Assembly (NCBI GenBank): GCA_028554795.2
Contig: CM068827.1
Location: forward strand, 74,195,244-74,259,243
Direction: 5' to 3'
Length of the DNA stretch: 64,000 nucleotides
From: Sinohyriopsis cumingii
Taxonomy: Eukaryota; Mollusca; Bivalvia; Unionida; Unionidae
Shown: positions 1 to 64,000 of the stretch, piece after piece
How positions within the stretch are numbered: position 1 is the stretch's first letter
How the letters are laid out: each line of letters opens with the position of its first letter
Notes under the pieces: generated by a model
Database searches by the model: none
What the model saw: the letters and a program-made list of their open reading frames with translations, nothing else
What the model was told of the DNA's origin: nothing
Position numbers and translations under genes: made by a program

Positions 1-310
1 AGTGGTTAGAGCATCCGCCTCGGATGCGGGAGGTCATGGATTTAATGCCCGGCAGAGTCGTACCAAAGACTTACAAAAATGGTACTAACAGCTGCCTCAC
101 TTAGCGCTCAATATTCAGAGGTTAGTGTTAGGACTGGTCGGCCTGGTGTCAAGATAATGTGACTGCATGGGACATCATGCTACATGTCTGCGGCATGATG
201 CCCCAGTGCTAGACATCACTATAAACTGCTACATTGCAGACATTGTAGCGATATGACTGAAAAATTGTTAAAGCTACATTAAAAATTCAAGTCACACACA
301 CACACATAGA
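1..310 (+). repeat. tRNA-derived SINE, 5' end cut by window edge
   Basis: The first 60 bases look like a tRNA: an A-box-like stretch (agtggttagagc), an anticodon-stem-like GCGG arm, and a degenerate B box near 38-50. A SINE body follows, ending in a (CA)n-rich tail near 290-320. The same head and body recur at 63023-63320, and head-only copies lie at 55872-56072. The B box is damaged (gatttaat instead of ggttcaat), so this copy is probably not transcribed. Family not named. Confidence 0.75.
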
Positions 311-1190
311 TAAACACACACATTGCTAAGGTGGCCATAATGGATGTCTTATAGGAAATGGTTTCATTTAGGACCAAGGAGACATCATTAAAATCACTTA
401 GCGAAAACCTCATATTTATATCAATTTCCATTCCAGAGCAGCAAGAACATGATTTTGTAATAGCTGCCATGGCAGTGAAATTATATGCTTGTGTGGCACC
501 ATTTTCAATTTAGACCAAATAATAATGATACGAAGTCTTCTGGTGAAAACCCCATGTCATTATGACTTTGCAATCTAAAGAAGTGATAACAACATTTTCA
601 TGATGGCTGACATGGTGGCCATATTGGACTTAAGATCAGTAATATTTTCATCATAAGAAGCCTTTAAGTGAAAACCCCATATTAACAGGAGAATCCTCAC
701 AGGAGTAGTAGCATAACAAGATTTGTGGTGGCCATATAGAATGGCCAAACAAAACCAATTTTATTTTGGACTAATTATACCATGGGATAAATGTGTGAAT
801 AAAGTTTGATAGCAATTCTCCTAGTAATTTAGGAGGCATAGCAAGAAGAAACTTGTGCTAATGGATAGACATCCGATGAATAACAGAAGACGGACAATAC
901 GCCATTCCATAAGCTTTTCTTGTCTATGACAAGTAGAGCTAACAATTAGAAATTAACAGTAATAGCTGTGTATGAAACAGTTCATTCTAATTTAAAATCT
1001 TGCTGGATCTACTATGTCATAAATGGCAAGAACTAAGCAGAAAGTCTTAGCGCAAAATGCAAGGGAAAAATATTTTCTTTGGTATGACATAACAAAAAGG
1101 ATAACAACAAAATCAACTTCAATGACTATTCTTAACCAATCCTCACAACAACATCAATGGCACACATTGCCCAATTTAAAAACAGTAGTA
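1..1190 (+). repeat. Left copy of the ~1.2-kb direct repeat that bounds the window
   Basis: This segment aligns colinearly with 63036-64000, starting in the SINE and running through unique-looking sequence to the shared end 'acatcaatggcacacattgc'. Substitutions are roughly 6-8% by eye, rising to about 15% over the first 60 bases. The right copy lacks two blocks of about 50 and 120 bases present here. By gene order this is DDX49 intron sequence between the exon at 5486-5574 and the next exon, which lies off the left edge. Part of the 300-930 stretch resembles dispersed molluscan repeats, so the match alone would not prove a segmental duplication. The DDX49 exon order supports it independently. 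Confidence 0.8.
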
Positions 1191-1293
1191 TTTGACACCA
1201 CCACCACCACCACATGACAAACATTTGCTACACCACCAGTGCCATATCTCATTATATATATTATTAGCCTTCCTACTATGACTGAATTGATAT

Positions 1294-1795
1294 AGCAATG
1301 GACAGGTGTATGGGTGATTTAGGACAGAAAAGAGCAATGGACAGGTGTATGGGTGATTTAGGAGAGAAAATAGTAATGGATAGGTGTATTAGTGATTTAG
1401 GAGAGAAAAGAGCAATGGACAGGTGTATGGGTGATGTAGGAGAGAAAAGAGTAATGGACAGGTGTATTGGTGATTTAGATGACAAAAGAGCAATGGACAG
1501 GTATATGGGTGATTTTTAGAAGAGAAAAAAAGTAATGAACAGGTGTATTAGTGATTTAGGAGAGAAAAAGAGTAATGGACATGAGTTTGGAGGTGATTTA
1601 GGAGACAAAAAGAGTAATGGACAGGTGTATGGGTGATTTAGATGAAAAAAGAGTAATGGACAGATTTATGGGTGATTTAGATATAAAAGAACAATGGGCA
1701 GGTGAATTGGTGGTTATGGAGAGGATACAGCAATGGACAAATGTATGGGTGATTTAGGAGGACAGAGTAATGTACAGATGTATTGGTGGTTAGGA
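1294..1795 (+). repeat. 39-bp minisatellite, about 13 copies
   Basis: The unit is 39 bases, 'agcaatggacaggtgtatgg' followed by gtgatttaggagagaaaag. Because 39 is a multiple of 3, the first copies are open on both strands, giving a 13-residue repeat on plus (MDRCMGDLGEKRA-like). Indels from about 1515 onward break the frames. I treat the ORFs as by-products of the repeat. Confidence 0.92.
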
Positions 1796-2495
1796 GATGA
1801 TAGAGCAATGGATGATTTGACATAGGTTATCAAATATCTCTGACATAACTGCAGTGGAGTAATTATGTGTAAAATAAACAAATGATGACAAAAAGGTTCC
1901 AAGTTTACCTGATACCATATTAGTAACAAGTGTGAGGTTGATATGAAGGAAAATGCAATTTCCCATACTCTGAACAATTTTATCTGTTAAAGAAAAATGG
2001 ATGGCAATTAGATACAAGTCATACAGTGTTTAGCAGATTATGTTTTGGCAACAAACAGTGGTATGATCTCTTCAGAAAAAAACCTTTAACATACTCTGCA
2101 ATTAAATTCACAACAGAAGACATGTGATGGGATTGGATATGAGATCACAGTACATGAGATGAATAGAAGGAAAAACATAGGTAATACAATATGATCCTTA
2201 CAAAGATATAATGGAAGCATCATGACAAAATAAAGAAAAGAATACTGAAAAAGGCATGTGATGCACCTCATAAGGTGTGAACCAGAGAAATATTTCATAA
2301 AACTATCAATAGAGGTTAAAACATGACATCTGGGATAAGGAAACAAACCACTGACTTACAATATTTCATTTGTGACCTTCACCTTGTAGCAGGGGAACTT
2401 TGAGAATATTTATCCAGTAACATGACTATTAGGAAATAACCTCCAATATCTTTGAATCCAGCCATATTCCTGATAGCTGAAAAACGTCTTTCCAT
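1796..2495. other. No gene recognised
   Basis: AT-rich DNA between the 39-bp minisatellite and the microsatellite. Short ORFs on the minus strand have no recognisable domain, no splice context and biased AT codons. It would be DDX49 intron if the gene model is right. Confidence 0.6.
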
Positions 2496-2554
2496 GTGTA
2501 TGTATGCATGTATGTATGTATGTATGTATGTATGTATGTATATATCTATCTATC

Positions 2555-2643
<89 letters not shown>

Positions 2644-2660
2644 AGAGAGAGAGAGAGGGG
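2496..2660. repeat. Compound microsatellite (ATGT)n-(ATCT)n-(AT)n-(AG)n
   Basis: A run of tetranucleotide ATGT units passes into ATCT, then about 35 uninterrupted AT dinucleotides, then AG. The short open frame across it simply translates the repeat. The AT tract is long enough to form cruciforms and to be a common assembly break or polymorphic site. Confidence 0.95.
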
Positions 2661-4330
2661 GGAAAGGGAAGTAACTCTTACAGACTACTTCCCTTGCTCA
2701 CACAGGGTGACCAAATGTATCCAAGTGAGTTTAAGCTTGAGCAGGACCTGTGATAGGATTTGCAGGGATCGATGGGAATGATTGATAGTAATGTGATTGT
2801 ACAAGTATTTTAGAAGAAAGACAATTTACTAAAACATTTTCTTCTCTATTCAGATGCCCATCAAGGTAATCTCAAGCCAGCTGCATCTGTCTTTCCTATG
2901 GGAAAAGGCACTTAGCTTCAATTCATCAGCTTGTTATGACAATAAATGTGTTAAAAGTGCCATTAAACTCCCCACAATTCTCCACTGAATAACTTATCAC
3001 ATTAACACTAGAAGAATAGGTACGAGGGCCTTACTGTGGTTCAAGTCCTACTTGGTCAGAAGGACACAAATTGTGTCCGTAAATGGAATACATCCAGCCA
3101 ACCCGTACGAAATAATTAGGCGGATTCCACCTGGAACTTAAGCAGACTCCAGGTAGATTCTGCCTAAAATGTTAAAAATCTGGTTAATACAAAGGCGGAC
3201 ATGGAAAATTTGAGAAGTCAAAGATGAATCCATCTAGAGTCCGTCTAACTCTAAGATGGACTTTTGTCAAATTCCTGCTATAAATACATCTTTAGGCATA
3301 ATTTTGGACTTTGTTGATTTTCCACCCACCATCTAGGTGGAATTAGGAACTTAGTCACTGGCATCTATTATATGAAAGAAGGAATCTGGACTTAGTTTAT
3401 TTTCTAACCAACATCTAGGCGGAATGAAGAACTTTGTCATTTACATCAGTTAAATAAGGCATAATTAGGACTCGGCTTTTGTGTTTCTGTAAAATTAAAT
3501 GACTGAAAATATAGTGATACTTTGTGATTGTAATATCACTGACAGTTCAATAAAAATGTCAATAAGATATAATAACATTTATTGTTTCTTGTACAATTTG
3601 AACGATTTTCAGCAACATTTATATTTCATGTTTCTGATAGCTGTAATTTTTGTTGTTTATTTTTTGCACAATTTATAACTTCTTTTTGCACAGCTTTCCT
3701 TGTTAAATTTCTTTTTCAACTTTGTTGTTGTTGTATTTTTGTTTAACTTCAATTGGATTTAACTGCCCTCAAACAAGTTTTCATATTGTTTTCCGTTTTA
3801 AAACATAATTTCGCTTTTCTCAGACCTGAATTTCCTCGATAGAGACCCAATTTTTAATATTGTCTCCGAAACTTTTTTTTTAATAATGCTCTATCCGGTC
3901 CCATTCCACAACGACCTTTCAAATAAGTATTTGTTCCGTTTATTGTTTAACAGAGGATCGTTGTATAAAGCTTTCTGATTGGTCAAAATTTGTAATTGCC
4001 CAATGAACCGTCGCGTAACAGAAACTGATGGGAAAGAGCATGTTTGCTAAACATGGCGATTCGAATTTTCGAGCGGGACAACAGACTGAATAACCATTTG
4101 AAAAATGTGCGGCAATGAGAATACCCTGAACACAAATTTGATGGGAACATAATTGGTCAGTCTGTATGAAAAATGAACGCCAGGACAAGCAGTTTGCTTT
4201 TTGTGCCATAAAGAGCTTTATAGTAGCGGCAAACGTGCTAAATAGGACAAGGAACTGAATCAGGAATCAGGATGATTTCGAAGTTATACAACTCCAAACT
4301 GATTAACTTCAGAATTTAAGGAGGGACAAC
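2661..4330. other. No gene recognised; short inverted repeat and GGCGGA-rich stretch
   Basis: At 2665-2695 an inverted repeat pairs aagggaagtaact with agactacttccctt, possibly the end of a small element. From 3110 to 3430, motifs such as aggcgga and tccacctgga recur at irregular spacing without a clear unit. The ORF on minus 3940-4209 has no recognisable domain. Confidence 0.45.
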
Positions 4331-4369
4331 GTGTAGATCACTGGTGGGAATTGTTGCCAGATATCCATG

Positions 4370-5335
4370 TCTATAAAAGAGTGCATTTCCGATGTGAAAT
4401 CATGGATGACATGTAACAAGCTGCAGATGAATGATGATAAAATTGAATCCATTCTGATTACAAATAAGGACTTCCTCATTCACATCCTTTACCTCAAACA
4501 ATAAATATCAGCAACACCAACATTAAATTCACACAGTCAGTACAAAACCTAGGTATTATTCTCGACAGCACTCTCACTGCACCAACATGTCATGAACAAA
4601 CGCAAGGCTGCATATCTTGTGCTGAGATGCAACAGCTACATTTATCTTTCAATTATCTTTCAGTTGATGCCACTAAAATAATTGTGTGTTCCTTAGTGCT
4701 TTCAAGACTGGACTATTGTAACTCAGTTCTGTCTGATTCGTCTCAATATCTACTCCAGAAACTTCAAAAAGTTCAAAACACAGCTGCTGAATCATAATTA
4801 GAGTACCATGATCAGAGCACACCTCCGCTGCTCTGTACCCTATACTGTTTATCCATTCGATCCAGAATCAAACACAAAATTTGTTCAATGTGCTATGTTT
4901 TACTAATGGGCTCCAGTCTAACACACCTATCCAAACTCACCAATGTTTACACACCAGCAAGATACTTACACTCCTCTTCTTACACTCATATTCTCATTAT
5001 TTCCACTATGAAAATCTAGTCATATGGACAATGTTCTTTTGCAAACCAGGGCCCGAATTGCCCACTGAACTTAGACATAAAGACACAGTGATTTCATTCA
5101 AGAGCACTCTTAAAACTCAAACTGCAATTTCACTTGCAGGAACAGATTTAAAGACCTAATAATGTTTTCTTACCTTACAATGTTTCCTTACCTTAAATAT
5201 TTCAACATGTTTTCTGTTTTCTAATTTCATGGTGTTTGTTTCTGTAATCATGTGCTATTGAGTTGTCCAATGTTGTAAACTGCTTCTAAAGATTAGGCAC
5301 TATAGAAAGTCCTCATTATATTATTATCATTACAT
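4370..5335 (+). pseudogene. Decayed CR1/L2-like LINE, 3' end of reverse transcriptase plus tail
   Basis: Conceptual translation in shifting frames gives the C-terminal end of a non-LTR retrotransposon reverse transcriptase. Visible motifs are VKSWMTCNKLQMNDDKIE at about 4390-4450, LGIILDSTL near 4550, and SRLDYCNSVL with LLQKLQKVQNTAA near 4700-4790. A YPILYWLSIRSRIKHKI-like motif sits near 4838-4880 and an FKSTLKTQ motif near 5098. The 3' end closes with the characteristic 'attaggcactatagaaagtc' and an ATTATT repeat. Frameshifts and stops show that it is dead. It is a 5'-truncated copy; its tail matches the fragment at 59155-59235. Confidence 0.85.
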
Positions 5336-5485
5336 GAGCACAAAACCTCAAGTCCAAATGTTAATGGGAGACCGACAATGTCCTAACATAAAACACCAAT
5401 CTGAACATAGATGTATAAATCCTAACCATGAATTGATATGAAAAGTGACTTTTGATGGAAAGTGACCTTTATAAGTTGTTCTTAC

Positions 5486-5574
5486 TATCTCCGCTTCTCT
5501 TCTGGCCACAGCAACCTCTGTCAAGATCTTTAACACCTCCTTCTCCTCTGTCTTGTATTCTATCATTTTGGCAT
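5486..5574 (-). CDS. DDX49: DDX49 exon: C-terminal extension after helicase domain 2
   Basis: An 89-bp exon on the minus strand: acceptor ...tattttgaaag at 5575-5576, donor GTAAGA at 5480-5485. It encodes N-AKMIEYKTEEKEVLKIL then TEVAVARREAEI, which matches the segment just after the helicase core in animal DDX49 (Dbp8 family, a nucleolar RNA helicase for small-subunit pre-rRNA processing). The phase (2 nt, then 29 codons) fits the end of the exon at 15912-15986 exactly. It ends in phase 0, as needed for the exon type at 62615-62686. That next exon of this copy would lie off the left edge. The intron upstream is about 10.3 kb and full of transposon remnants. Confidence 0.88.
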
Positions 5575-5695
5575 CTTTCAAAATATAATTCAAAGTTAAA
5601 GATGTGTACAATGACTATACTAGACCAGAAAATAAGCATTTGGACTAAATTGTAGTCCTGATAATCAAGTAATATGCATTGATCTTCAATATGTA

Positions 5696-5909
5696 GATTC
5701 TATTGGAATTTACTTTATACACAGAGTACATGACTCAGACACTATAACAGGATTAATTACAGTGTTTTATGACAAAAACTAAACTTTATTTTAAAGGTTA
5801 TGATTCTATTGGAATTTACTTTATACACAGAGTACATGCCTCAGACACTATAACAGGATTAATTACAGAGTGTTTTATGACAAAAACTAAACTTTATTTT
5901 AAAGGTTAT
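5696..5909 (+). repeat. 106-bp tandem duplication, two copies
   Basis: Copy 1 is 5696-5801 and copy 2 is 5802-5909. They are nearly identical: one substitution in 'catgactcagacac/catgcctcagacac' and a 2-base insertion (acagtg/acagagtg). It lies in the large DDX49 intron. The 74-residue ORF over it is a repeat product. Confidence 0.93.
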
Positions 5910-6089
5910 GATTTAAATACAAAATGCCCGATGTTGATTGATAGCTTAAATTTGGAAGTCAGACTGTTTAAAAATAAAAGTATGAAAAACTAAATTCTGT
6001 AAAATAGACTGAATTTGAACTTTAACACATTTTATTTGTGTTGGTATCAGAATTAATAAAAGACATTGTGAAAAGGTCAAAAGATTTAA

Positions 6090-6430
6090 CAGAAATAGCA
6101 TGGGCTTTTGAGAGATGATATCCTGCTTCCCAGTTTTCGCTGGAAGAAAAAAGGTGCTTATGTGTGCCACAACTTGTCTCTGTACATTTTCAAGAAGTGC
6201 TTGCGTACACGAACAGGATCTTGCATGGTCACCGCTCTCAACAGGTCTATGGGAGAGAGTGAGCAAATGATGACTTTGATTGGCAACAGATGGTAACCTA
6301 TGTGTAGCTACAAGGCCTGGTTGTTTCAAGAGGACCACATAAACATCCACACTGAATAAGAAATAGCTTGGGTCGATGGAAAGGGCATGCAACTTGCTCA
6401 CCTTGCATGCTGATCCAAATGTTATCTCGA
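6090..6430 (-). pseudogene. DIRS-like tyrosine recombinase fragment
   Basis: Within a 151-residue minus-strand frame (5946-6401), residues near the start read KLHALSIDPSYFLFSVD, then VLLKQPGLVATHRLPSV, then the HRPVESGD / CTQALLENVQRQ region. These line up with the conserved 'ELHALS...PGF...LCPVRAL..Y' blocks of DIRS-type recombinases. The upstream residues ACKVS replace the usual RVGE-like catalytic arginine context. The downstream part of the frame is ordinary AT-rich sequence, so the true recombinase similarity ends near 6100. Confidence 0.75.
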
Positions 6431-6749
6431 AACAGGTTTTGTATCATCATAGCTTTATCAAATTGTGGGCTAAAGTTTTAAATTTATTTGAACTCAGCCA
6501 TGTTAAGACCCAATACTAATTCCATTTTGGAAAAAGAGGGAAGGATTTTGGTCAGTTGAGATCAAAATTGGCTAAAAGATCAGTTGATCTCTATCATGTT
6601 GAATATCACATCTACTATGATGCCAGAATATCATTGAGCAGTAGCATTTGAGTGTAATTGGGGTCAACTGTTCCTCCTTGAAGAGCCAGAGAAAAAATTC
6701 ACCAGTTGAAGGATTGAGGAACTAAGAGTGATGATGGTATTGATAAGGC

Positions 6750-7770
6750 ACTAGTCCCTGAAAACGTGCCTTTCCCTCATAAGTAAGGCTACAGAGTGGA
6801 GAAGATTTGGGTTGGCCGGAATCTTCATGGGCAGATCTGTTGCAAGATCGAGTAGATTGGTACCCCAGGACGTGTCCCCTCTGAGAGGGCTATCAAAATC
6901 ATCTTGCATTTCTGACCCTGAAACTTCTGGATTATTTGTGGTACCAAGACCATGGGAGTGTAAGCAAATCCCCACAACCCCTCCCAACTAATTGACAGAA
7001 TATCCACACCCCAAGCTTCTGGATCAAGAAATGGATAGACAAAAGAAGACACCTTGTGGTTCCAACAAAAAAACTGACCATCGGATGTCCACAAAGTACA
7101 CAGATGTGAATAATGACTGACTGATGTAGAGAACATTCCGTATGAATGACTTGATCTTTCATGGATAGAATGTCTTTAATATATTGAGTCTGCTGGAAAT
7201 ATGTCTGATCTGTATGTTGATAAGAACGTTGTCACACCAATGCAAAAACTGCCAAATCAGAACACAGGTTGGGTTATCTGGTGCCCCCAACCCCACCCCC
7301 ATCTAAGTAGGTAGGTTACCACGACAGAATTGTCAGACAAAATGAGGACCATTTTGCCTGATAGTCGATCCTTCCTGTAGTTTAAAGGCATTGATGACAA
7401 CCTTAATTTCTAAAAGGTTCATGTGGAGAGGCCACTCCAATCCCTCGTGCTGCTGGCAGTAGTGAAGTCCAGCAACAGAAGGGCATTGTTACATACCATT
7501 ATGACTGTTTGGGGCTTCTCCAGCAGGATCCCCATGGTCAGCCAAAATGGGATACACCCTTGATGCAGGAATCATCATATCTAGGGAGTAATCATGACTG
7601 GATGATTGAGGGGACTTGAAAAGGGGCGCCAATATGCTAGGAACATCATCTGTACGGGCACATAAAATGATCAAGTCTGCCACCTCAATGAATAGTTTGA
7701 GGAGTTCCAAGAACTCTCTCACTTTAATCCAAGTCCTGTTGTACAATTTACACTGTCCATTTTTTGATGA
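6750..7770 (-). pseudogene. DIRS-like RT connection and RNase H fragment
   Basis: Across three frames the minus strand reads LDMMIPASRVYPILADHGDP (connection, near 7560), then HMNLLEIKVVINAF (RNase H entry, near 7420), then a CIGVTTFLSTYRSDIF-like segment. It continues with FVYPFLDPEAWGVDILS and WEGLWGFAYTPMVLVP, then KMILIALSEGTRPGVPIYS (7060-6850). These are the hallmark blocks of the DIRS RNase H region, including the 'DALS.W.GL.AYAFPP...L..RVL' signature. Frameshifts and stops separate them. Confidence 0.78.
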
Positions 7771-8199
7771 AAAAGCATATCTCCTTTTGTAGAAAGGATT
7801 CTTCTGATCTGATGGTATATCCATGAATGGGTATAGGAGGAAATGGGAGGGGGTTGTATAAATGAAATCTAAAGCCCCTCTGAAATGACCTGGATCCCCC
7901 ACTCATTCTGAAGGAATAGGGTGATCCTGTGAGCATGAAATTATGAGGGTAAGTTCCTGAGCTGCTTGCCTCTGAACATCTTCAATTCTTCCTCCAAAAC
8001 GTAAATGATGAAGCTCGAGTGACATGGACTGCAGACATGCATCACATCATATTAGGTCGAAGTTGGCAAAAAGCAGTCAATGATTGGCCATGAAATGGTG
8101 AGCTGCCCATTAAATGACTTTAGCAATTCTAGCCATCACCTTCCAAGAGTGGTCACTACCGAATTTCTCTGCAAGTCAGAAAATTGCCAATGAGGACAA

Positions 8200-9217
8200 A
8201 CTAAATATTGAAGACATAGCAACTAGGTTTCAGACAAGCTTTGATATGGCATGGAAAACATTTATAAAACAAAGAAGCAGACATATGAGCTGCTGCTAGA
8301 TTTTTGTCAAGGGTTGGGAGCTCAGTGCTGAAGGCATCTGAGTGAGCTTTATACCAGCACGATGAGAATGTCACTGGTACTTGGCTTTCCACAAAGAAAG
8401 CCTTAGAATTCCCTGGATCACCAATTCTACCTGATAGATGGTCATTGATCTCCTTAAGTTTTAGCAAAATGGGGAAAGAGCTGCAAGGATGGTGCTTTTC
8501 CTCCTCGATGATTCTTTAACGTTATAGTTTTCAGTAGCTGTAGGTGGTGGCAGGCATTCTGAAGTTGCCAACACCCTATACATTTCCTCAACCGTGGCCT
8601 TGAAGTTAATGCCAGTCCATTCCATTATCAGATCTTAAGTACAGCTGATGTGTAGAAACTTCGTCATACTATATACATGTTATGTAATGTTCTGGTACTG
8701 CTTGCAGCTCTGGATAAGCCATATCAGGTGGAATCGATGGATCAATTCTATCCTCTTTGAAAATGTCACTATGTCTCCCATGTGGATAAGCAGTGAACAT
8801 AACCAAGTCCAGTATTGCCAGAACGGCTGGCTGGTTTCCCTGGCGTATGGTCAGCCTGGGTGCTGGAAATATAGAAGACAGTCGGCCTCTCCAAGGGCCT
8901 AACTGGACAGACCAATTTCTCACTAAAATCTCCATCATAGTAAGGGTAGGTCGCAGATGGTGCAGCGAAATGGCTGGATCTGTCACTAAGATCTCAGTAA
9001 ATTCTAACTGACTGGACTGTTTTATCAAATAAATCCCCATGCTCAGATGGCTGAACAACAGTGACTGTGAGGCAATATTATGAAATGGGTCCAACGGACC
9101 CAGTACAAACCCCATGTGCCCGGACTTACAGGCCCAAAGGCCATGCTTGAACATGGGACACTCACTCAATGAGCCAGAAAACAATTGTGTCACTCTCTCC
9201 TGGACCAGATAACACAT
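8200..9217 (-). pseudogene. Probable gag region of the DIRS-like element
   Basis: Two minus frames (8669-9217, 182 residues; 8201-8467, 88 residues) precede the RT/RNase H remnant in element order. The second contains LDKNLAAAHMSASLFYKCF, which resembles helical gag segments of DIRS elements. Similarity is weak and the call depends on the neighbouring domains. It may include unrelated frames. Confidence 0.4.
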
Positions 9218-9220
9218 CTA

Positions 9221-10415
9221 TTCGAAGGCGGACATTTATACCATCTCAACATTATTCTCCTCCACTGCCAATGATATTGATGTGGCGGGCGGGTGGGGGG
9301 GGGAGGGGGCCAGCGTACACAACAAGACTTGCAATGGAGGTTATCTTGGGATGTTGTTATGTGTATTTTATTTAATTGTTTCTCTGTTAGTTTTCATTTT
9401 TTTCCACTACATGCTATTGTAAAATAACACTGTGTACTGGATTTTACCTTGTCTAGAATTTAGTTCAGTTCTGTTTCACCTGATTGACTTAAAAAAAAAA
9501 TTTTGTTTATTTCATTGATGTAAACAACTAAAAATAGCTTCATTGTCCTCTATGGATAAATGAAACTTTCTATCTAGTTACTAACCTTGTTTCAAAATCA
9601 GTGACAGTTTTGGTAAAAACTTTCTTAAAATTTATTTTTAATTATTTCTCAGAGTAAGAATCAGTGAGTCAAGTTCATACTTGGAGTACATAAGGTGTAT
9701 TATATTCCATATGCTAACAGTCTTCTGTTTGATTCTAGAAATAAATAACTTTACCCTCATCCAGGGATGTATTTTGCATCATAATCAGTCGTATAACTGA
9801 TGCTATGTTAGAACTTTTCATTAATAGGACTTGTGTTTAATATTTGTTGGATCATTTTTGGACTTAATTTGAAATACCTTAATTTTTCCCTTAGTATTTC
9901 AGAGAAATAAATTATTTGTTAAATTTTACAAAGCTTGTTGTCTTCACTCTTTTCTGTAACTTAAAGAGCATAGACTCGTAACAATGTATAGTGAGGACAT
10001 CAATGTTATATTTTCTTGACTTATTCCATCGTTCCTTCCTTTTTGATGCCTTCTTGACTACTGTAGCCCAGACTTGCTCTGTCCATGTATTATATACACT
10101 GCATGCCATGGATGATGTACACTTAGTACTTTAGATACCAGAGTCATCATTGTCTGCCTTTGCATTGATCTTTTTGCATCTATTTGACAATTCTACAGAA
10201 ACAACAAAGAAAAAAAAAAGCATAAATGAGCAATTCAGCATGTTACTAACTCATTAATTCCACCCTCATTACTAATGGAGTAGGTGAAAATAGTGTTGTG
10301 CTAACTCATGAATGACAACATGAGCACAACAACTGCATATTGTAATGTTGTCTTAAGTAGACAAAGTCCGTAAAGGTGACAAAGTCACTAAAATTAGGAA
10401 AAAATTGTAAAAATA
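9221..10415. other. No gene recognised
   Basis: DDX49 intron sequence. A G-rich run of about 25 bases lies at 9285-9310 (gcgggcgggtggggggggga) and could form a G-quadruplex. The rest is AT-rich with poly-A/T runs. Confidence 0.55.
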
Positions 10416-52020: not shown

Positions 52021-52029
52021 TCGGGCCAA

Positions 52030-53080
52030 GATCAGAGTTATAGAATATATGCATTAAGAAGCTGGTGAACGTTGTTCCATTCGCTTTGTTATTTCAGGAT
52101 GACAATATAGATTTTGTTGGACGGAACTCTCATGCGAAACAGAACACGTTCTATGCTCTAAGTTCTTTCCCATTGTGGTCTACATTTTGTTCAGATTATT
52201 TCAGGCAGACAGTATAGAACGAAAAGTGAACGATACATGGTACAACATCTAGATAGACTTTGGTGTCATGCACCGGCAGATCAGGGTATGCTCTATCCAT
52301 TCTACTTATTATGGTTAAATTGTGTTCTACCTATTAAGGCATGTAGACAGAGTTCACTTCGATGATCAAACCTATCATGCGATACCAGATCTGGATCTCC
52401 GTTTTCTTTCTACTTACGATGATCAACATTTCTTATTTCAGGCTGATATTACAGTAATACCTCGTGCATTCGCGTTTCTGGATTCGCAAATTCACGGATT
52501 CGCGAAATTTTCATTGGTACATGTTTTCTTTATTTTATTGAATTGTACCTTCGTTATATGACTTCTGTGACATATGAAGTTTACCTAGTTTACTTTCCTG
52601 ACAATGACAAAGAAAACGTCAGTCATTAAGTTTACAGTCCCATTCGTTACTTGGTTTTACCTTACTGTGAGTGCAAAAGAAAACGGCAGCCAATGAATTA
52701 GTATAGGGGTAATATTAGTATACATGTACCGTACTGTAAATGCGCTAGTGTGGCAAATACCCATTAGGCGATACTGTACTCTATTTTTACGTCAACCATT
52801 TATTTCTCTTTTTAAGGGTAATGTATTAAGCTAACTTTTAAATGAAATTAAAGTGCTTTGAGAGCATGATTTGGGTCATATTTAGGGTTTAAACCCTAGA
52901 AATAAGCATTTATTAGCATTTTTAGTGACTCGTACCAAACATTCACGATTCCTCCTGATCCGCGACTGGTTCTGGAACCTAACCTCGCGAATGTTCGAGG
53001 TATTACTGTATAGAGTTTGATGGGCAGGCCTATCACCAGACAGCAGATCTGTGTGTACTCTGTTCGTAGTTGAGTTGGCG
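52030..53080 (+). repeat. ~100-120-bp repeat units related to 42200-42600, interrupted by a MITE
   Basis: Units start after 'ttatttcag' at about 52098, 52205 and 52441. The half-units 'gatgatcaaacctatcatgc' + gataccagatctgga (52360) and 'gatgggcaggcctatcacca' + gacagcagatctg (53020) belong to the same consensus. A 557-bp MITE splits the last unit at 52452. Confidence 0.7.
52452..53008. mobile_element. Pogo/Tigger-type MITE, 557 bp, with TA target duplication
   Basis: Termini CAGTAATACCTCG on both sides (inverted), extended to 23 bases with two mismatches, flanked by TA. The interrupted host sequence 'gatatta|tagagttt' is found uninterrupted at 42576-42590 (gatattatagagtttc) in the paralogous repeat. 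This confirms the boundaries to the base. Subterminal 'ttcgcg..ttcgcaaattcacggattcgcg' repeats lie near the left end. No coding capacity. Confidence 0.92.
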
Positions 53081-53258
53081 ATGTACACGTGTTATGTTAA
53101 CAACAGTTACAATTGAAGAATCATAAATTACTAAAGTAATTTCGGCATTTATTGTTTTTAGATTGGCCATTTGTGAGGAGGATTCTGCATATTTGCGCAG
53201 TAATGTAAAGTTTCTCTTTAGTCTGTTCTGATTATGCCTATGGATTAGGTACATAGTA

Positions 53259-54468: not shown

Positions 54469-55745
54469 TACTTGTAATGTCCGTCCTTGTCATGCAGTTG
54501 CTAAACATCACGTTACATCCAATGGCATAGCAACTGCTCAAGCCACTATTCCAACTGCAGGGCGGTGGTGGGAGCCCAGGCATAGCTGAGCCAAAAATGT
54601 TTTGTAACTATGTAATGGAAATGGGAGTAGTGAAAGAAGATAGTATAGGGAGAATGGACTTCACTATTAAACTAGGAGGGTTGTATCGTTGGGACATTGT
54701 GTATTTAACATGGGGAATTTTAACATTGTACCGTAGGGACAATGGAAATTTAACATGGGAAACGTTAAAATAGGTGGGACTAGAGAGAGACAAAAAATTA
54801 TTGAGAATGTATAGGGACAATAGTAATGGAACAGGTGGTTGACCTCACTGTACTGTTTTTAGACAAGAAAGACAATCTTTTCGAGGCAATGAAGTGGCCC
54901 TGATAAGGGCCGTTGGTTTTTATGTTAACATCATTCCGTTAACACAGAGGCATTGCATAGTTTAAGTTTAAGCTAATCTATTGTACAATAGATTAAGTCA
55001 TGCTTATTGAATGTACATGAAAACAGTATAGGGATGTTTCCTATTTGTATTAATAATCAAACAATTAAAATATATGAAATAATGTGCATTTATTACAGTA
55101 CAAAGAAAACAAAGTAGCAAACAGAGAAGCAAACAAATCTTGGATTAAAGGGTCTCGGTCAATATATAGTATTATGCAAATGAGATTGGTGGATTTATTC
55201 ATTGTGTGATCAAGGGAGTTCATCTGGTATAAGTCCATTGTTTAAAATAATAATTGTGCAGCTTTGTAACTCTATCGCAAGCTGTGCATTTTGAACTGGA
55301 TACTCCCCATAATGTGTCAACTGTCTAGATAAAGGCATTATTCAGCACAAATGAATGACCTCTAAATTTCTGGTTGTTCCCCTTCCATGATGGCTGATTG
55401 ATTCTTCATATTTATCCAGTGAATGCTTTTTCTCCCACTATACGACATTTTCAAATCTCTTAGACTGTTTTGCCACACACACAATATGAAATTCGATCTT
55501 TTCAGCGTGGTCTCTTGTTTGTTTTTCTAGACACTTCAATATGCATAATTGAGATCGACAAAATTCAACATTGTGTATACTTTATTATTCGCTTAAAGGG
55601 TTACAGTCGCTTTACGTTCAAATTTAAATGAGATGTTTAGTATTAATTACACACCTGGCGAATGGTCATCATGAGCAGTATTATCTTACATACCACAGTA
55701 TACAAATAAGATAATCAGAAAACGATGAGATATCAAAGGAACTAA
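54469..55745. other. No gene; possible repeat at 54610-54830 and 22-bp palindrome at 54974-54995
   Basis: From 54610 to 54830 phrases such as 'gggacaatgg..atttaacatgggaa' recur three times, a short degenerate tandem repeat. At 54974-54995 the sequence TAATCTATTGT/ACAATAGATTA is a perfect 22-bp palindrome centred on GTAC. Confidence 0.6.
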
Positions 55746-55749
55746 AACG

Positions 55750-55778
55750 TACGTATGTATGTATGTATGTATGTATTT
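55750..55778. repeat. (GTAT)n microsatellite
   Basis: About seven GTAT units directly before the SINE pair region. Confidence 0.95.
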
Positions 55779-55871
55779 CGAACAGGTTTGCATATATGAG
55801 AAAGAAAGTCTGGTTGTTTTTATACAGCATATATTTCCTTTAGTTTCTTTCGTTCACTTTCCTGACCGCTC

Positions 55872-56072
55872 CGGAAGCCTAAGTGGTAAGAGCGTCTGCC
55901 TCGGACGCGGGAGGTCGCGGGTTCGAACCCCGGCCGAATCATAAACTTATTAAAAAAATGGTGCTACCAGTTGCCAAGCGAGAAAACTGTTAGTACCATT
56001 TTTGTAAGTCTTTGGTATGACTCGGCCGGGGATCGAACCCACGACCTCCCGCATCGGAGCGGTCTCAGGTGA
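55872..56072. repeat. Head-to-head pair of tRNA-SINE heads (inverted repeat)
   Basis: Plus-strand head 55872-55982 (A-box-like taagtggtaagagcg, B box gggttcgaaccccgg). Then a minus-strand head in 55985-56072 whose reverse complement reads 'ccgctccgatgcgggaggtc' + gtgggttcgatccccggccgagtc. Both belong to the family at 1-310 and 63023-63320. The arms are about 85 bases with a short spacer, so transcript or single strand would fold into a long hairpin. The B boxes are intact, unlike the copy at 1-310. tRNA gene status is rejected because the T-loop is followed by SINE body and the acceptor stem is not closed. Confidence 0.88.
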
Positions 56073-56499
56073 TCTGAGATAAGACTTTCTCAAATTAAAT
56101 GATGCAATAAGATTTCAGAGAATAAAGAAAACCTACCATGCTTTATAAAAAGATTAATAAAATATTTTTCAAACAAAAATAAACTGACATTTCGATACAT
56201 TATAATTTTCTATATTATAATTAATACATAAGTTTCGAAAGAAAACGGCGCTTTTGTCTACTTAAAATTGAAATTTGTGTATGAATGTACATTGCAACAA
56301 GTTTTCCATTTGATCTAGAATGAATAGATTTTGGTATTTTTGTCGATTCTACGAAATTTCGTTGAGTATGGACTGGATTCATCTGGGCAAACGTTTATTT
56401 CATTTTGAGTGCAGAAGGGAGGATGTAATTGCACCTATAATATAGTCGATATTACAGTACAATTTCGAAATGATTAATCAAGCTTGGGAAATCATGACA

Positions 56500-56965
56500 T
56501 GGCTCATGTAATTCGGATTTGCAGAACTAAGAAAGTACATTTTGAGGAAATTCAGAATGTAAAACTGTAAGTATATTTTTTGCCATTATTATTACCAGCT
56601 AAAGGAGACAGCTTATGCCTTTATAACTTGCAAATTATTTGTAGGTACCAAGAAATTTTATAAAATCTGGCGTATATCGCCATAATCCGAAACATTGAAT
56701 CAAAAAAGTTAACATGGAATGTAGCAAAGCAGCTGGTATGTGGCAGCCTACGAAACATCTGCTTTAGTTCATTCAGAAACAAATGTAATCAACCAAAATG
56801 TAAAGCGTCTGCTACACGAGAGTACATGATTTGTTTACAAAGTAGTTTCGAATACACTATTGGTCACACGTGTCGTGCGCGTGAGTGCAATATGAAGGTG
56901 TGCAATATCGCAAAATACTGCACGATTCTGACAATATAAAGTGAACGAAGAAAGAAATGAGCATA
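56500..56965 (+). repeat. Diverged segmental duplicate of 30655-31550
   Basis: Carries the same ordered blocks as 30655-31550 but lacks roughly 400 bp from the middle. 'gtttacaaagtagtt(t/c)cgaataca' is the best-preserved stretch (56832/31419). Confidence 0.75.
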
Positions 56966-58250
56966 AAACAATTAACTATTACTTGGGCAATGCATACCGT
57001 AGTCGCTGATCCAGAAATATCGTGTAGTCTAAACAGGTAGAGGAGTCTCTGTGACAGAATCCCTGGCAGGTGCCAAGAAGGATTTTTAGCAGATCTTTAG
57101 CATACTATGGAGCATCTAAACTGTAAAGAAAACGTTATGAAACATTCTGATTGTTTCATGCTCCTTTTCTTTGGGGTGTGGTGTGGTGTTGGAGCTTCTC
57201 TTGATGTCCTGACACCTTGCATCCCTGAGATAAACAGTGTCATATTATTTCATTTTGAATTGTATACAGAAAGGTTTTCTGTCCTTAAATAGTTTTAAAC
57301 TGCTCAAGATACCTGGTAAATAATGAGAAATATAATATTTAAAAAAATCAAAATGTACATTTACATCTACGATGAAACAATAATACTTAGCATGGTTTAC
57401 ACCATCCCATAGTATGGTCCAAATGACTTTTTAATATGTTGCAAATTAGCCTTGTCTGAATTCACTTACACCTGATGTATATATCCTGTGGTATTTTCTC
57501 TCATATTTGGACTGGTGGTGAAGAACTAGCTCAGTGTGAAGAGGTACATGTCTCACTCTCTCTGTACATGCATACATACATGCATGTATGCATACATATA
57601 TCCATGCATGCATACATACATGCATGTATGCATGCATACATACATACACTATACATACATACAATATACATGTACATACATATACACACACACAAACAGC
57701 TGTGATTGTGTCATATTTGGTGTAGGTCTTTCACTTCTGAACAGCTAACTCCAGCTGGAGAGCTAGCTGCCTCCTTACTATATATATACCAAAATATACA
57801 ATATGGATATCTGGCAGGGAAAGTTTGATGAAATCCGTGAATGAAACCCTTTTCCACTAGAGTTCATGAATGATATATTTATACATATTATATAGTTAAT
57901 ATCTGTAATAGCAAAATAAACTCTATACTATACTATAAATAAAATGATAATGGTATTATGTGCATGGTTTTTGTTCAAGAACCAAATGTGAAAGGTGAAC
58001 TTGCAGTTTGGCTATTTCCTATGCTTAAAACAGGTTCTGAGACATTGACTCTTGACTGAGATCCACTTCCTCAGTATTGCTTGATATAGTCAATTTAAAA
58101 GGATAAGTAACTAACCGTCAGTCTTGATCTGAACTCAGTTTCATTTATGTTTGTTTTTTAATTTTAGAAATAAGATTAAATTTAGGATGAATACATTTGC
58201 TCTATTATTTCCATATTTCTAAATCTGCAGGAGATAAATGTCTCTTTTTA
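56966..58250. other. No gene; CATA/CATG microsatellite at 57565-57690
   Basis: The CATACATG-type repeat gives overlapping His/Met/Cys/Tyr-rich frames on both strands, which are rejected as genes. The remainder is anonymous AT-rich DNA, 3' of the right-hand DDX49 copy. Confidence 0.6.
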
Positions 58251-58254
58251 CTTA

Positions 58255-58698
58255 TCAAGAGCCAGTCAGGGGTACCTTGTCAAGAGCCAGTCAGGGATAC
58301 CTTGTCAAGAGCCAGTCAGGGGTACTTTGTCAAGAGCCAGTCAGGGATACTTTGTCAAGAGCCAGTCAGGGGTACTTTGTCAAGAGCCAGTCAGTAGTAC
58401 CTTGTCAAGAGCCAGTCAGGGGTACTTTGTCAAGAGCCAGTCAGAGGTACTTTGTCAAGAGCTAGTCATGGGTACTTTGTCAAGAGCCAGTCAGGGGTAC
58501 TTTGTCAAGAGCCAGTCATGGGTACTTTGTCAAGAGCCAGTCAGGGGTACTTTGTCAAGAGCTAGTCAGGGGTACTTTATCAAGAGCCAGTCAAGGGTAC
58601 CTTGTCAAGAGGCAGTCAGGGGTACTTTGTCAAGAGCCAGTCAGGGTACTTTGTCAAGAGCTAGTCAGGGGTACTTTATCAAGAGCCAGTCAGGGGTA
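58255..58698 (+). repeat. 25-bp minisatellite, about 18 copies
   Basis: Unit 'tcaagagccagtcaggggta' + ctttg, with variants (ggatac, gctagtc, catggg) and one 1-base-short unit near 58645. As 25 is not a multiple of 3, three units make a 75-bp period that is open in several plus frames; these are not genes. It starts about 170 bp 3' of the DDX49 stop at 58867 (minus orientation) and so lies just beyond its poly(A) site. Confidence 0.97.
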
Positions 58699-58824
58699 AC
58701 AGACCAACAGTTTAAAATAGACAATATCAGCCAACATCACTGTAATGGTTGCTGTCAGAACTTTTAAGTGCTTTACAGCAACATAAATGACAAAAAGGAT
58801 AGGTTTAAGTTTCCCAACTGGAAT

Positions 58825-58830
58825 TTTATT
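58825..58830 (-). terminator. Polyadenylation signal AATAAA of DDX49 (right-hand copy)
   Basis: AATAAA on the minus strand, 37 bases after the TGA stop. A downstream T-rich region is not obvious. Confidence 0.6.
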
Positions 58831-58866
58831 GCACTTTTTTGTAACAAAATATTTGTAATAAAGATC

Positions 58867-58950
58867 TCAATTTTTCTTTTTGAAATGTTCTTTCCTCTTA
58901 AACTTTTCTTTTATTCTCTTCTTTTTGTTTTGTTCCTCTTGCTCAGGGTC
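58867..58950 (-). CDS. DDX49: DDX49 last exon (right-hand copy): basic C-terminus and stop
   Basis: Acceptor atttctttgtttcttcag. The coding part is 84 bp: DPEQEEQNKKKRIKEKF then KRKEHFKKKN and TGA at 58867-58869. It continues the basic tail of DDX49 in phase 0 after ...IILEGK from the exon at 62615-62686. It corresponds to the Lys-rich nucleolar C-terminus of the family. In protein order this exon comes after the one at 5486-5574, yet on the minus strand it lies upstream of all the middle exons in this window. It must therefore belong to a second gene copy. Confidence 0.9.
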   Translation of the reverse strand, partial: DPEQEEQNKKKRIKEKFKRKEHFKKKN

Positions 58951-59154
58951 CTGAAGAAACAAAGAAATCATGGCAACAATTAATATAAAAAGTTAAACTA
59001 TTCATGTAGATCCATTTTAAATTCCAATACTGAGCAAAACTTTCATAAACCTTACAGAAAATGGAAAGACTTTCTTTCTTTCATTATGTCTTCATCCTGA
59101 GAGTATGAAATTAAAGCTACATGTCTCCAAAATTTGGAGAATAACATAATAGAG

Positions 59155-59235
59155 GTGCTGTCTAATGTTGCAAAGTGCCTAGAGCTTCTAAAGATTAGGC
59201 ACTATACAAAGTCTTCATTATTATTATTATTAATC
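59155..59235 (+). repeat. LINE 3' tail fragment
   Basis: 'tgcctagagcttctaaagat' + taggcactatacaaagtcttcattattatta, the same tail as the LINE at 4370-5335. Only the last ~80 bases are present, a strongly 5'-truncated insertion within the last DDX49 intron. Confidence 0.85.
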
Positions 59236-60254
59236 GGAACACCTCATTCACTTCAAACATGCTGACAGGAATATGCATAGATTGCATGCATGTGCAGATA
59301 GCTAACCACCCTCAGAGGTATTATGCACCCCGAGCATATATTACTAAGATCTGCATACGATAGTGAACACCAAAAGGATATTTTACACTGAAAGTCGTGA
59401 ATTTTAAAGCAGTTAAACAAATATTAACTAATGCAAAGGTACTATAGCTCTGACATTAGAAATAATTACTCTTTTATCCAATGATGTTACGTGAAATATC
59501 TGCTGTATCATCTTAGTACAGCAGTTTGTCTGGCTTTTATATATGACCTTTATTCATCATAAACTACGTGAACTAATCTGAGTATACCATAGCAAAGGGC
59601 AGCTTTCTTTGTGTCACACCAAGGATATCGACAGGTCATTCTTGCAGATAGAATGGAATTATTACAGCTTTTCTATCATACTGGTTTTATATGGTCATAT
59701 TAAACAGTTTGGTTTAAGGCAGAGTCAAGAATGAACCCTGTAACCTTTTTGAAGCCATCCAAAAACTACAAACCCATTAACATGGATCCATTTTTAAACC
59801 AAACAAAAACAGTAACATGAAAAAGCTAATCCATCTATGTTCATCTGCATGCAGTACATCATGTTTACTTTCCTGAAGACTTTTGTGCCATTCTTCACTT
59901 TTTAATGTTTGAACACTGGCAACTGGCACAATATAGGCATATTTTGTAATGCAGTCCCACTGATCACTAATGCATATGAATTGTAAACAATATTTACTCC
60001 AAGAAAAGCATGAAAAATAAAATACAAAGAACTAATCAAAATATTGATAAGGACTTAACAACAAGAAGAAAATTTAACATTATATAATGAAAGAAAATGT
60101 TTTTGAAGGGATCAAATAAGAGCAAAGGTTACATAAATAAATAACAGACATATTGGGTTGGCCTAGTTGTCCAGACAGTTTGTGTTGAACCAGAAACAAA
60201 TGATCACATTCTAACTGATATGAAAGGACTGAAAGAATCACCAACCCATGAGAC
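59236..60254. other. DDX49 intron, no feature recognised
   Basis: AT-rich; no frame, repeat or exon was supported. Confidence 0.5.
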
Positions 60255-60735
60255 TATCACATTCTAACTATTGTGACAGGTAGTTCAGACTATCACATTC
60301 TAACTGATATGACAGGTAGCTCTGACTACCACATTCTAACTGATATGACAGGTAGTTCAGACTATCACATTCTAACTGATATGACAGGTAGTTCAGACTA
60401 TCACATTCTAACTGTTATGACAGGTACTTCAGACTATCACATTCTAACTGATATGACAGGTAGTTCAGACTATCACATTCTAACTGTTATGACAGGTACT
60501 TCAGACTATCACATTCTAACTGATATGACAGGTAGTTCTGACTATCACATTCTAGGTAGTTCAGACTATCACATTCTGATATGACAGGTACTTCAGACTA
60601 TCACATTCTAACTGATATGACAGGTACTTCAGACTATCACATTCTAGGTAGTTCAGACTATCACATTCTAACTGATATGACAGGTACTTCAGACTATCAC
60701 ATTCTAATTGATATGACAGGTAGTTCAGACTATCA
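60255..60735 (+). repeat. 36-bp minisatellite, about 13 copies
   Basis: Unit 'ctgatatgacaggtagttca' + gactatcacattctaa, with shortened units lacking 'ctgatatgac' near 60550 and 60645. A 12-residue period (MTGSSDYHILTD) is open on plus but is not considered coding. It lies inside the last intron of the right-hand DDX49 copy. Confidence 0.97.
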
Positions 60736-60963
60736 CATCCAAGGATGTTATTTCATCTGCACAAAAATCATAGGTGTTCCAAATGGGTATTTCAAGTGTT
60801 TTAACTCTCAAGTTCTAATTATGATATTCTGGCCTAACATTCCAAAATGATTTCCTGTTACAAAGATATTCAAGTACCTCAAACACTCATGTGATATATC
60901 ATGCAAACACATCAAAATCTATGTGAATTTTGGAGACAAGAGTCCCACTAATTGTTTTATCTC

Positions 60964-61196
60964 TATTTGTTGTTGCTGTTATAGAGATTAATGCCATTTT
61001 TCAGCACAAGATAAGCGGTGTATAAACGGTGGAGGAATAATCCAAGAAAACCCTGGAAAAAACCACCAACCCATGAGAAGCTACAGGCAAGCTTTCTCAC
61101 ATACCCACATTGGCTGAGACTGAAACTCGAACCATTGCAGACAGAGATGAGCTAGCAGTGATCTGTAATGGTGAGCGCTTTAGACCACACTGGATG
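60964..61196 (-). repeat. tRNA-derived SINE (GTTGTTGT-tail family)
   Basis: Runs from the ttgttgttgctgtta tail end to the head 'gagcgctttagaccaca' read in reverse. The body matches 41768-41965 and 61283-61532 but is more diverged (ccaacccatgagaagctaca). Confidence 0.85.
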
Positions 61197-61282
61197 TCTG
61201 CTAGTTCATTATTGATATTACCAATTAGGCTGAAGTAATGAACATTTTAACCTCTGCATTCGTACACATCCAGCTAGGCATT

Positions 61283-61532
61283 TGTTGTTGTATTTGTAGG
61301 GTTTAATGCCATTTTTCAGAACATGATAGATTATACATGGCGACCAGTATTAATGGTGGTGGAAGAACCCGGGAAATCTCTGGAAAGAACCACCGACCCT
61401 CGAGAAGCTACTGGCAAGCTTTCTCACATACCCACATTGGCCGAATCCGAGACTCGAACCCATGCAGGCAGAGGGGAGATGGCAGTGATCCGTACCGGAG
61501 AGCGTTTTAGACCACTCAGCCACTTGAGGCAC
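61283..61532 (-). repeat. tRNA-derived SINE (GTTGTTGT-tail family), most complete copy
   Basis: On the minus strand the head reads gtggctgagtggtctaaaac + gctc (A box, Ser/Leu-tRNA-like) and, after about 35 bases, gggttcgagtctcgg (B box). The 'ccaatgtgggtatgtgagaa' body and an acaacaaca end follow. It is full length, so it is the best template for the family in this window. The ORFs on both strands are SINE sequence. Confidence 0.9.
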
Positions 61533-61740
61533 TCCAGCTAAGCATTTTTATATCACAAGGAAATGTTTTTAAAAAAAACATCCAATTTTTCTTACTGAAG
61601 CAATGAAGTAGTGGACAATAGTGTTAGATTAATTAATGGGTAAATCATGTATTTTATGCATATTCAAAAGAAAATGATACAACTGAAATGAGATTTTTGG
61701 TTATAACTGTAGCTTGAAAATAGATATGAATGTGGTCATC

Positions 61741-62403
61741 CTATATGGGGCCATCCATTTAGTACGTAGACAAAAATCTGGCAAAGCTTGACCCTTTCCC
61801 TGTACACATACATACTTTTTTACATACAGGTGGTCTCCTATATTGACAGATATGGTACAAACTGAAATGAGGCATGTCAAAATGTTGTTTGCTGTATGTA
61901 CCAAATTAATTGCAACCTCTCCATTTTTTTTGACGGTATGCCTCACAAAGTAAAACTCCATCAATGAAGAGTTCTGTAATTTACTTCTGCTTGCTTTGGT
62001 TCCTAAATCACCTTCTTTTTACACCCCCTCACCAGCGTATGTATGCTTGATGCCCCCCCCCCCATTCTTTAGAATGGCTTATATTTAACCCATACAGAAA
62101 CAATCAAGGATTAATAATATTAAACGTGTTTAATAAAAGATAGTCCACCGATGTTGAATGTCTGGCTGCATCAAAGAAATAAGCTGTGTAACTTTAAAAA
62201 GTTTGTCCAGTGTCCAATAAAATTCAAATGCTTTCAGTCGAACAGGTTACGTATTAGACAAATTATTATCGATTCCCACCCCCCCCCCCCGTTTCCTATG
62301 CATAGGTACGTTATCAGTAGACCACCCCCACGCAAGCGTATATATTTGGGTTAAGACCCCCTCCCACCTCGATGCAAATGTACTAAACGGATGGCTCCTA
62401 TAG
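61741..62403. mobile_element. Inverted-repeat element with poly-C tracts, 663 bp
   Basis: The left end CTATATGGGGCCATCCATTT + AGTACGTAGAC pairs with the right end, whose reverse complement is CTATAGGAGCCATCCGTTTA + GTACAT. Long C runs lie at 62053-62064 and 62278-62291. A termini motif GCCATCC-TTTAGTAC plus C-rich flanks is recognisable from repeats widespread in arthropods and molluscs (general knowledge, superfamily uncertain). It is intronic to DDX49, about 210 bp from the exon at 62615. Confidence 0.7.
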
Positions 62404-62614
62404 TGTCACATAAACATGATACATGTAGTAAATTAAAGAGAGGTCAAATATAGGTGAGTAGACTCTCTAAACAAAACTACAGATAACATGGCCATTGTAA
62501 GGCTGCTAGGAAAGGAACTTAAAATAAATATTTACTTGCATATATAAAACATAGTAAAACTGATTATATTGTAGTGTCAAATAACTGAAAGAATAGCATC
62601 TGATATGTTATTAC

Positions 62615-62686
62615 CTTCCCTTCAAGAATAATTCTTTTTCTTTTGTTTATTTCTTTTTTCTCTCCAAAGTCTCCTTCATCAAGTCT
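62615..62686 (-). CDS. DDX49: DDX49 penultimate exon (right-hand copy)
   Basis: A 72-bp exon: acceptor gatattttttgcag at 62687-62700, donor AAG|GTAATA. It encodes RLDEGDFGEKKEINKRKR and IILEGK, matching the conserved '(F)xEKKEINKRKxxILEGKDP' tail block of DDX49. It is in phase 0 at both ends, so it would follow the exon type at 5486-5574 exactly. Its own upstream exons must lie beyond the right edge of the window. Confidence 0.92.
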
Positions 62687-63022
62687 CTGCAAAAAATATC
62701 AATTTTAAAATGTATTTTACTTTTCATGATTGCTTGATTGATGTCCAAATTACTATCATCAAAACAGGAGTCCTCAAAGAGACTGACAGTTTAATGGCCA
62801 CTATGATATTCCAGGAGTCCAATTTAAAACCATTTATTTCCTTCTTCAAGTAAGTATTGAAAACTATCATTGATATTTATGAGCAATAACAAGATTTTGA
62901 AATCTGCCTGCTGTTATGGCCTTTTTGGATTCAAGATCTACACCATTTTAAATCAATTGGTAAAAACTCCATTTGAATACAACCATAAACTAAGTAACAT
63001 TAACTTTAGTTTAATAATGGCT

Positions 63023-63320
63023 GCTAACGTGGCCTAGTGGTAAGAGCATCAGCCTCAGATGTGGGTGGTCATGGGTTCAATCCCCGGCAGAGTCATATCA
63101 AAGACTTACAAAAATGGTACTAACAGCTGCCTCGCTTGGTGCTCAACATTAAGAGGTTAGTGTTAGGACTGGTCAGCCTGGTGTCAGGATAATCTGACTG
63201 GGTGGGACATCATGCTACATGTCTGTGGCATGATGCCCCAGTGCTAGACATCACTATAAACTGCTACATTGCAGAAATTGTATGACTGAAAAATTGTTAA
63301 AGCTACATTAAAAATCCAAG
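63023..63320 (+). repeat. tRNA-derived SINE, full-length head
   Basis: A-box-like ggcctagtggtaagagc and B box gggttcaatccccggc (63076-63090), body as in 1-310, ending in a CA-rich tail. It supplies the left part of the SINE that is cut off at position 1. Confidence 0.85.
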
Positions 63321-64000
63321 TCACATACACACATACACATTGCTAAGGTGGCCATAATGGATGTCTGATAGGAAATGGTTTCATTTTGGACCAAGGAGAC
63401 ATCATTAAAATCTCTCAGTGAAAACCTCATATTTATATCAATTTCCATTCCAGAGCAGCAATAACATGGTTTTTTAATAGCTGCTAGAAATCATACAAAG
63501 TCTTCTGGTGAAAACCACATGTCAATATGACTTTTCAATCTAAAGTAGTGATAACAATATTTTCAAGATGACTGCCATGGTTTACAAAACCAATTTTATA
63601 TTGGACTAATTATACCATGGAATAAATGTGTGAATAAAGTTTCATGGCAATTCTCCAAGTAATTTAGGAGGCATAGCATGAACAAACTTGTACTAATGGA
63701 TAGACATCTGATGAATGACAGAAGATGGACAATAAGCCATTCCATAAACCTTTCTTGTCTATAACAAGTAGAGCTAACAATTAGAAATTGACAGCAATAA
63801 CTGTGTATGAAACAGTTAATTCTAATTTAAAAACTTCCTAGATCTACTATCTCATAAATGGCAAGAACTAAATGGAAAGTCTCAGTGCAAAATGCAGGGG
63901 AAAAATATTTTCTTTGGTATGACATAACAAAAAGGATGACAACAAAAGTAACTTCAATGACTATTCTTAACCTCACAACAACATCAATGGCACACATTGC
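63036..64000 (+). repeat. Right copy of the window-bounding direct repeat
   Basis: Colinear with 1-1190 up to the last base of the window. It lies in the intron upstream (on minus) of the exon at 62615, the equivalent intron to that of 1-1190. Confidence 0.8.

Follow-up and report, generated by a model that had tools for sequence, protein, structure and literature searches.

Genes at the locus

The DNA analysed here is a stretch of 64,000 nucleotides from the freshwater mussel Sinohyriopsis cumingii (the window; C4:74195244-74259243, inside a record of 149 Mb), in which exons of DDX49, a conserved RNA helicase gene, lie on the minus strand and an open Toll-like receptor (TLR) gene lies on the plus strand. 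Coordinates follow the numbering of the window, with negative values to its left, and the flanks were read from -130,000 to +184,000 and from -150,000 to -140,001. The findings make it very probable that the window spans the junction between the second and third units (U2 and U3) of a three-unit tandem segmental duplication, in which the TLR genes are open and DDX49 pseudogenes are carried as passengers.

The original prediction had placed minus-strand DDX49 exons, in protein order, at 21.8, 19.0, 17.3, 15.9 and 5.5 kb and then at 62.6 and 58.9 kb. A tblastn search (E up to 1) with the 458-residue DDX49 of Sinanodonta woodiana (P0014, ACJMK2_043868) recovered the same order at 21.84, 19.08, 17.38, 15.99, 5.58, 62.69 and 58.95 kb, the matches being 21843-21703, 19088-18924, 17383-17285, 15990-15910, 5575-5486, 62686-62615 and 58953-58870 (the first and third without their extensions into introns). 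These seven exons, here called a to g, correspond to residues 223-458; the first match nominally reaches residue 178, via an intron with stops. No exon for residues 1-222 was found in the window by the same search, and the patterns of motifs I, Ia and II are absent from all six of its frames, a loose motif Ib pattern giving a single chance-like match on the opposite strand at 6862. Splice signals and phases, read by eye, are consistent across the seven exons, which bears out the in-phase joining that had been predicted. The single protein supposed to result from it does not hold, since exons a to e come from copy 2 of DDX49 and exons f and g from copy 3. The apparent single protein mixes these copies because the left copies are predicted 5′-truncated pseudogenes, and the join therefore hides a stop in exon f of copy 2.

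The flanks complete each set of exons, all on the minus strand. Copy 3 is a complete gene of 12 exons: exon g, the last, with its stop, lies at 58867..58950 and exon f at 62615..62686, and the remainder, from exon e to exon 1, spans 66.7 to 102.5 kb, with exons e, d, c, b and a at 66.8, 77.4, 78.8, 80.5 and 83.3 kb and five 5′ exons, down to residue 1, at about 87.7, 91.5, 92.3, 95.8 and 102.5 kb. In copy 2, exon a (exon 6 of the 12 and the last before the breakpoint described below) lies at 21704..21844, exon b at 18925..19077, exon c at 17287..17384 and exon d at 15912..15986, with limits set by eye, and exon e at 5486..5574; exons f (-391..-462) and g (-6343..-6423) lie to the left of the window. 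Exons that had been forecast outside the window, near -400 and near 68.5, 78.9 and 80.3 kb, were thus found, at -391 and among the copy 3 exons at 66.8, 77.4, 78.8, 80.5 and 83.3 kb. Exons a to g span 28 kb in copy 2 versus 24 kb in copy 3. Copy 1 retains exons g, f, e and a at -98516, -94864, -91012 and -77531.

Copies 1 and 2, as judged from their sequence, are 5′-truncated unprocessed pseudogenes of DDX49, since both retain introns and carry disabling lesions. Exons 1-5 are missing from both. An in-frame stop interrupts exon f of copy 2. Copy 1 is also without exons b-d, which fall within a stretch lost from its unit; a one-base length difference in exon f changes its frame, and no stop directly follows exon g. 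In searches of the whole genome (2,904,868,851 bases in 1138 contigs), which score the best candidates only and whose match counts are therefore lower bounds, 20 of the 50 DDX49 matches listed fall in C4:74.10-74.30 Mb, and within this locus each piece of residues 1-222 occurs once. The remaining 30, at 32-65% identity, are taken to be different DEAD-box genes.

The TLR gene of the window, T3 (39193..41304, plus strand), is open and encodes 703 residues with LRR and TIR domains; it shares 82% identity with Potamilus streckersoni CHS0354_014355 and 80% with Sinanodonta woodiana ACJMK2_043867. Its two tandem copies are likewise open: T1, of 702 residues, at -128.2 kb, and T2, of 701 residues, at -60.6 kb. 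The ratio of nonsynonymous to synonymous substitution rates (dN/dS) among T1-T3 is 0.56-0.65, with no sign of an average above 1. Among the 64 TLR matches listed genome-wide, three are 80-82% identical and all lie within the array, the other 61 being 26-58% identical. In the tree, T1-T3 form a clade (99/96) separate from the Sinanodonta pair 043866/043867, which groups with itself (100/100). Among the Sinanodonta locus tags considered (ACJMK2_043864 and 043866-043869), that of DDX49 (043868) is numbered between those of the TLRs 043867 and 043869, and 043867 is of the same TLR type as T1-T3. The consecutive numbering of 043867 and 043868 suggests that Sinanodonta has an equivalent TLR-DDX49 neighbourhood.

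Other TLR sequences were observed outside the array. To the right of the window, at 121.8-123.9 and 150.8-152.9 kb, lie two more copies related to Sinanodonta 043869, 78.5% alike over a 4.9-kb alignment, the former frameshifted with stops and the latter open. At C17:33.6-34.5 Mb, TLR-like genes of lower identity (27-39%) are clustered; many of them have long open frames, and several contain stops.

Units and junctions of the array

The array extends from -145.4 to 84.2 kb and comprises three units of about 71, 97 and 61 kb. Each contains an open TLR gene on the plus strand and then the 3′ half of DDX49 on the minus strand, and unit 3 alone continues into DDX49 exons 5 to 1. Unit 1 (U1; -145361..-74222, 71.1 kb, of which 10 kb was unread) starts at an (AC)n run. 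Unit 2 (-74221..22744, 97.0 kb) has its right end in the window at 1..22744, where pseudogene copy 2 runs from exon e upstream to the breakpoint. Unit 3 (22745..84194, 61.5 kb) enters the window with its left two thirds, 22745..64000. The three units are adjacent and in the same orientation, with 27-42 kb aligned per pair in chain, and they have a head-to-tail junction in common, as in a tandem duplication. Within the 4.6 kb read beyond the left edge at -145361, a decayed TLR was found on the minus strand, matched best by Sinanodonta 043864 out of six TLR queries, and DDX49 gave no match there at E up to 1e-3.

At the duplication junction J2 (22731..23140), the DDX49 intron stops and is followed by a dispersed repeat of about 400 bp and an (AC)n run, and J1, at about -74222, repeats the transition of J2 at 22744. 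At both, a shared DDX49 intron passes into other shared sequence while unit 3 stays in its own intron: the letters diverge from unit 3 at about 22,730, and the homology of copies 2 and 3 terminates at 22744 and 84194, respectively. Units 1 and 2 therefore share a single intronic breakpoint, in the DDX49 intron between exons 5 and 6 (window about 22,730-22,744). The initial 400 or so bases past each junction are a dispersed element with at least 38 genome matches, 15 of them nearly full length, including both junctions. No microhomology is claimed at the founding breakpoint, because this repeat occupies the junction and the left edge of the array begins only at the (AC)n run.

The units differ in length and content. 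The offset between U2 and U3 is 61.2 to 72 kb across the DDX49 half and 97-100 kb across the TLR half, so that the tandem duplication originally predicted stands without the constant repeat length of about 63 kb assigned to it. At about -57 to -17 kb, unit 2 has some 40 kb without a chained match to the corresponding 12 kb of unit 3, and it is therefore longer; the counterpart of about 14.5-19.95 kb of unit 2 has been lost from unit 1, which also contains local inversions. Substitutions per aligned base amount to 5.8% between U2 and U3 (42,087 bases; blocks 2.7-11%), 8.2% between U1 and U2 (26,821 bases; blocks 4.5-15%, two 75-base blocks being identical) and 5.8% between U1 and U3 (28,685 bases; blocks 2.4-12%). 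The closest pair of units varies along the unit, a pattern that exchange among copies would give.

As predicted, the two ends of the window are colinear within one DDX49 intron, that between exons e and f, with 1..1170 belonging to copy 2 and 63036..64000 to copy 3. Their divergence, put earlier at 6-8% plus indels, was measured at 8.2% (79 of 965 aligned bases), and the indels were confirmed as five gaps (6, 12, 52, 130 and 5), all in the right copy. This match could in principle come from a 1-kb repeat dispersed to both ends with no duplication, as at least 63100-63340 is a high-copy element lying at the start of the match (all 40 scored of 2033 candidates match). The rest is largely locus-specific: for 63584-64000, two of the 40 matches listed genome-wide are full length and are the two window ends themselves, another is a 167-base inverted piece at C4:74103250, and the remaining 37 are 72-86% identical over stretches of at most some 200 bases. 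The exons recur as second copies to the right of the window, and homology runs over tens of kilobases on both sides, so that a pure dispersed repeat is refuted and retains a negligible probability. The matching ends would also suit a circular molecule of about 63 kb whose ends overlap in the assembly, a circle being among the options of the original prediction. As a reading of the assembly this is refuted, because the window sits within a 149-Mb record, at 74.195-74.259 Mb, and its flanks continue; the ends are moreover 8.2% different and the 5′ half of the gene is absent from the window, which leaves the circle hardly any credence.

A false (heterotype) duplication, in which the assembler set divergent haplotypes of one locus in tandem, was also weighed. 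Such duplications are a known class of error, chiefly where haplotypes are divergent (PMC9516828). Set against this, three copies stand in one assembly, and their blocks differ by 2.4-15% (the two identical 75-base blocks aside), compared with k-mer heterozygosities of 0.92% in Sinohyriopsis cumingii and 1.15% in Anodonta woodiana, as given in PMC10969987 and PMC12048480. The two truncated DDX49 copies have different disabling lesions, the units carry their own insertions while sharing a junction, and a conversion tract links copies 2 and 3. An assembly gap between copies, which PMC9516828 describes as usual though not invariable, is absent, as no runs of N occur anywhere in the flanks read. 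The unmerged haplotig that had been offered as an alternative is thus very unlikely, and the three-unit tandem duplication is most likely real and of an ordinary kind.

Some unit-specific elements were also noted. A young, DNA-transposon-like insertion occupies 46495..49202 (plus strand) in unit 3 and is absent from the equivalent site of unit 1. A second copy at -77487..-75088 (2.4 kb versus 2.7 kb for the window copy) is 99.8-99.9% alike, and both are absent from the corresponding sites in other units. The element has short inverted ends (CACTGG/CCAGTG) and, by eye, 3-base target duplications (TAG, ATA). An open frame of 525 residues in the left copy ends about 37 residues before that of the window copy, which contains about 308 bases exactly duplicated in tandem, with a resulting shift of its frame; two pieces of the window copy's frame gave no Pfam match. 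Elsewhere in the window, a DDE_1 transposase fragment lies at 53400-54182 (plus strand; Pfam E 5.8e-10), and Rfam gave a histone 3′ untranslated region stem-loop at 54870-54916 (minus strand; 34.3 bits against a cut-off of 34) and one tRNA-like match, neither with any bearing on the array.

Exchange between pseudogene and gene

When 13846-22733 was compared with 75273-84186 in 300-base bins, 7-19 differences per bin were found to the left of 16596, 0-1 over 16597-19596, then 3 and 4, and then 6-17. The tract delimited at 16396..19756, about 3.36 kb with two differences strictly inside it, covers exons b and c, both identical between copies 2 and 3. With other limits, 16,560-20,200, 11 gap-collapsed differences fall inside, versus 264 across the remainder of the 8.9-kb block. 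Among 13 other blocks profiled, bins with 0-1 differences were limited to two neighbouring bins between U1 and U3, near -116 kb, and an isolated one between U1 and U2, near -127.7 kb. Such a short, near-identical tract within more diverged paralogous sequence is, on this profile, the mark of a recent gene conversion between pseudogene copy 2 and gene copy 3. No direction is assigned to it, because unit 1 is without that segment.

Several points weigh against the interpretation as a whole. The layout was read from assembled sequence, 10 kb of unit 1 (-140,000..-130,001) lie outside the sequence read, and the genome-wide counts are minimum values. The adjacency in Sinanodonta is assumed from consecutive locus tags, not from DNA. 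In addition, copy 2 shows no change from copy 3 in exons a, b and c, which by itself is suggestive of constraint (exon d matches at 74 of 75 bases). Constraint on the truncated copy is not claimed, because the conversion tract covers exons b and c; exon a (141 of 141 bases) lies outside the tract and its identity is unexplained, though chance may account for it.

Origin and meaning of the array

The array could have arisen as follows: one founding tandem duplication of a segment running from the TLR to the 3′ half of DDX49 would have created a single junction, and unequal crossing-over, or a second duplication in register, would have copied that junction to give three units. Later insertions and deletions would then have made the unit lengths unequal, and gene conversion would transfer sequence between the copies. 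The TLR copies are likely to be the functional product of the duplication, with the truncated DDX49 copies as its passengers.

TLR expansions by tandem duplication occur in bivalves. The present array resembles other tandem duplications of immune receptors in its adjacent open TLR copies, which are lineage-specific in the tree, but it differs from them in that each unit brings with it one half of a housekeeping gene unrelated to the receptor, broken at a shared intronic breakpoint. Similarly, the truncated DDX49 copies resemble unprocessed (duplicated) pseudogenes in their kept introns, truncation, in-frame stop, frameshift and exon loss, whereas part of copy 2 has been recently homogenised with the functional gene. 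In the one library searched, nothing was found that pairs DDX49 with a bivalve, and the titles and opening lines of abstracts listed there for Hyriopsis cumingii Toll-like receptors and tandem duplication do not name the array.

One possibility, which we regard as doubtful, is that two or more freshwater mussel lineages have each amplified this TLR next to DDX49 independently, as T1-T3 here and as 043866/043867 in Sinanodonta, so that the site would be one of recurrent amplification, and that sequence still passes between the passenger pseudogene and the functional DDX49, perhaps from pseudogene to gene.

Reading the exon order by eye pointed to a genuine structural duplication; in place of the choice between a circle and a haplotig, the flanks give a resolved layout. 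For annotation, the locus is a warning that a false 3′ half of DDX49 may result when exons from copies 2 and 3 are merged. For biologists, it offers a clean example of an immune-receptor amplification that carries along half of a housekeeping gene, with one junction common to two units, and the recent conversion tract could bring mutations of the pseudogene into a conserved RNA helicase gene.

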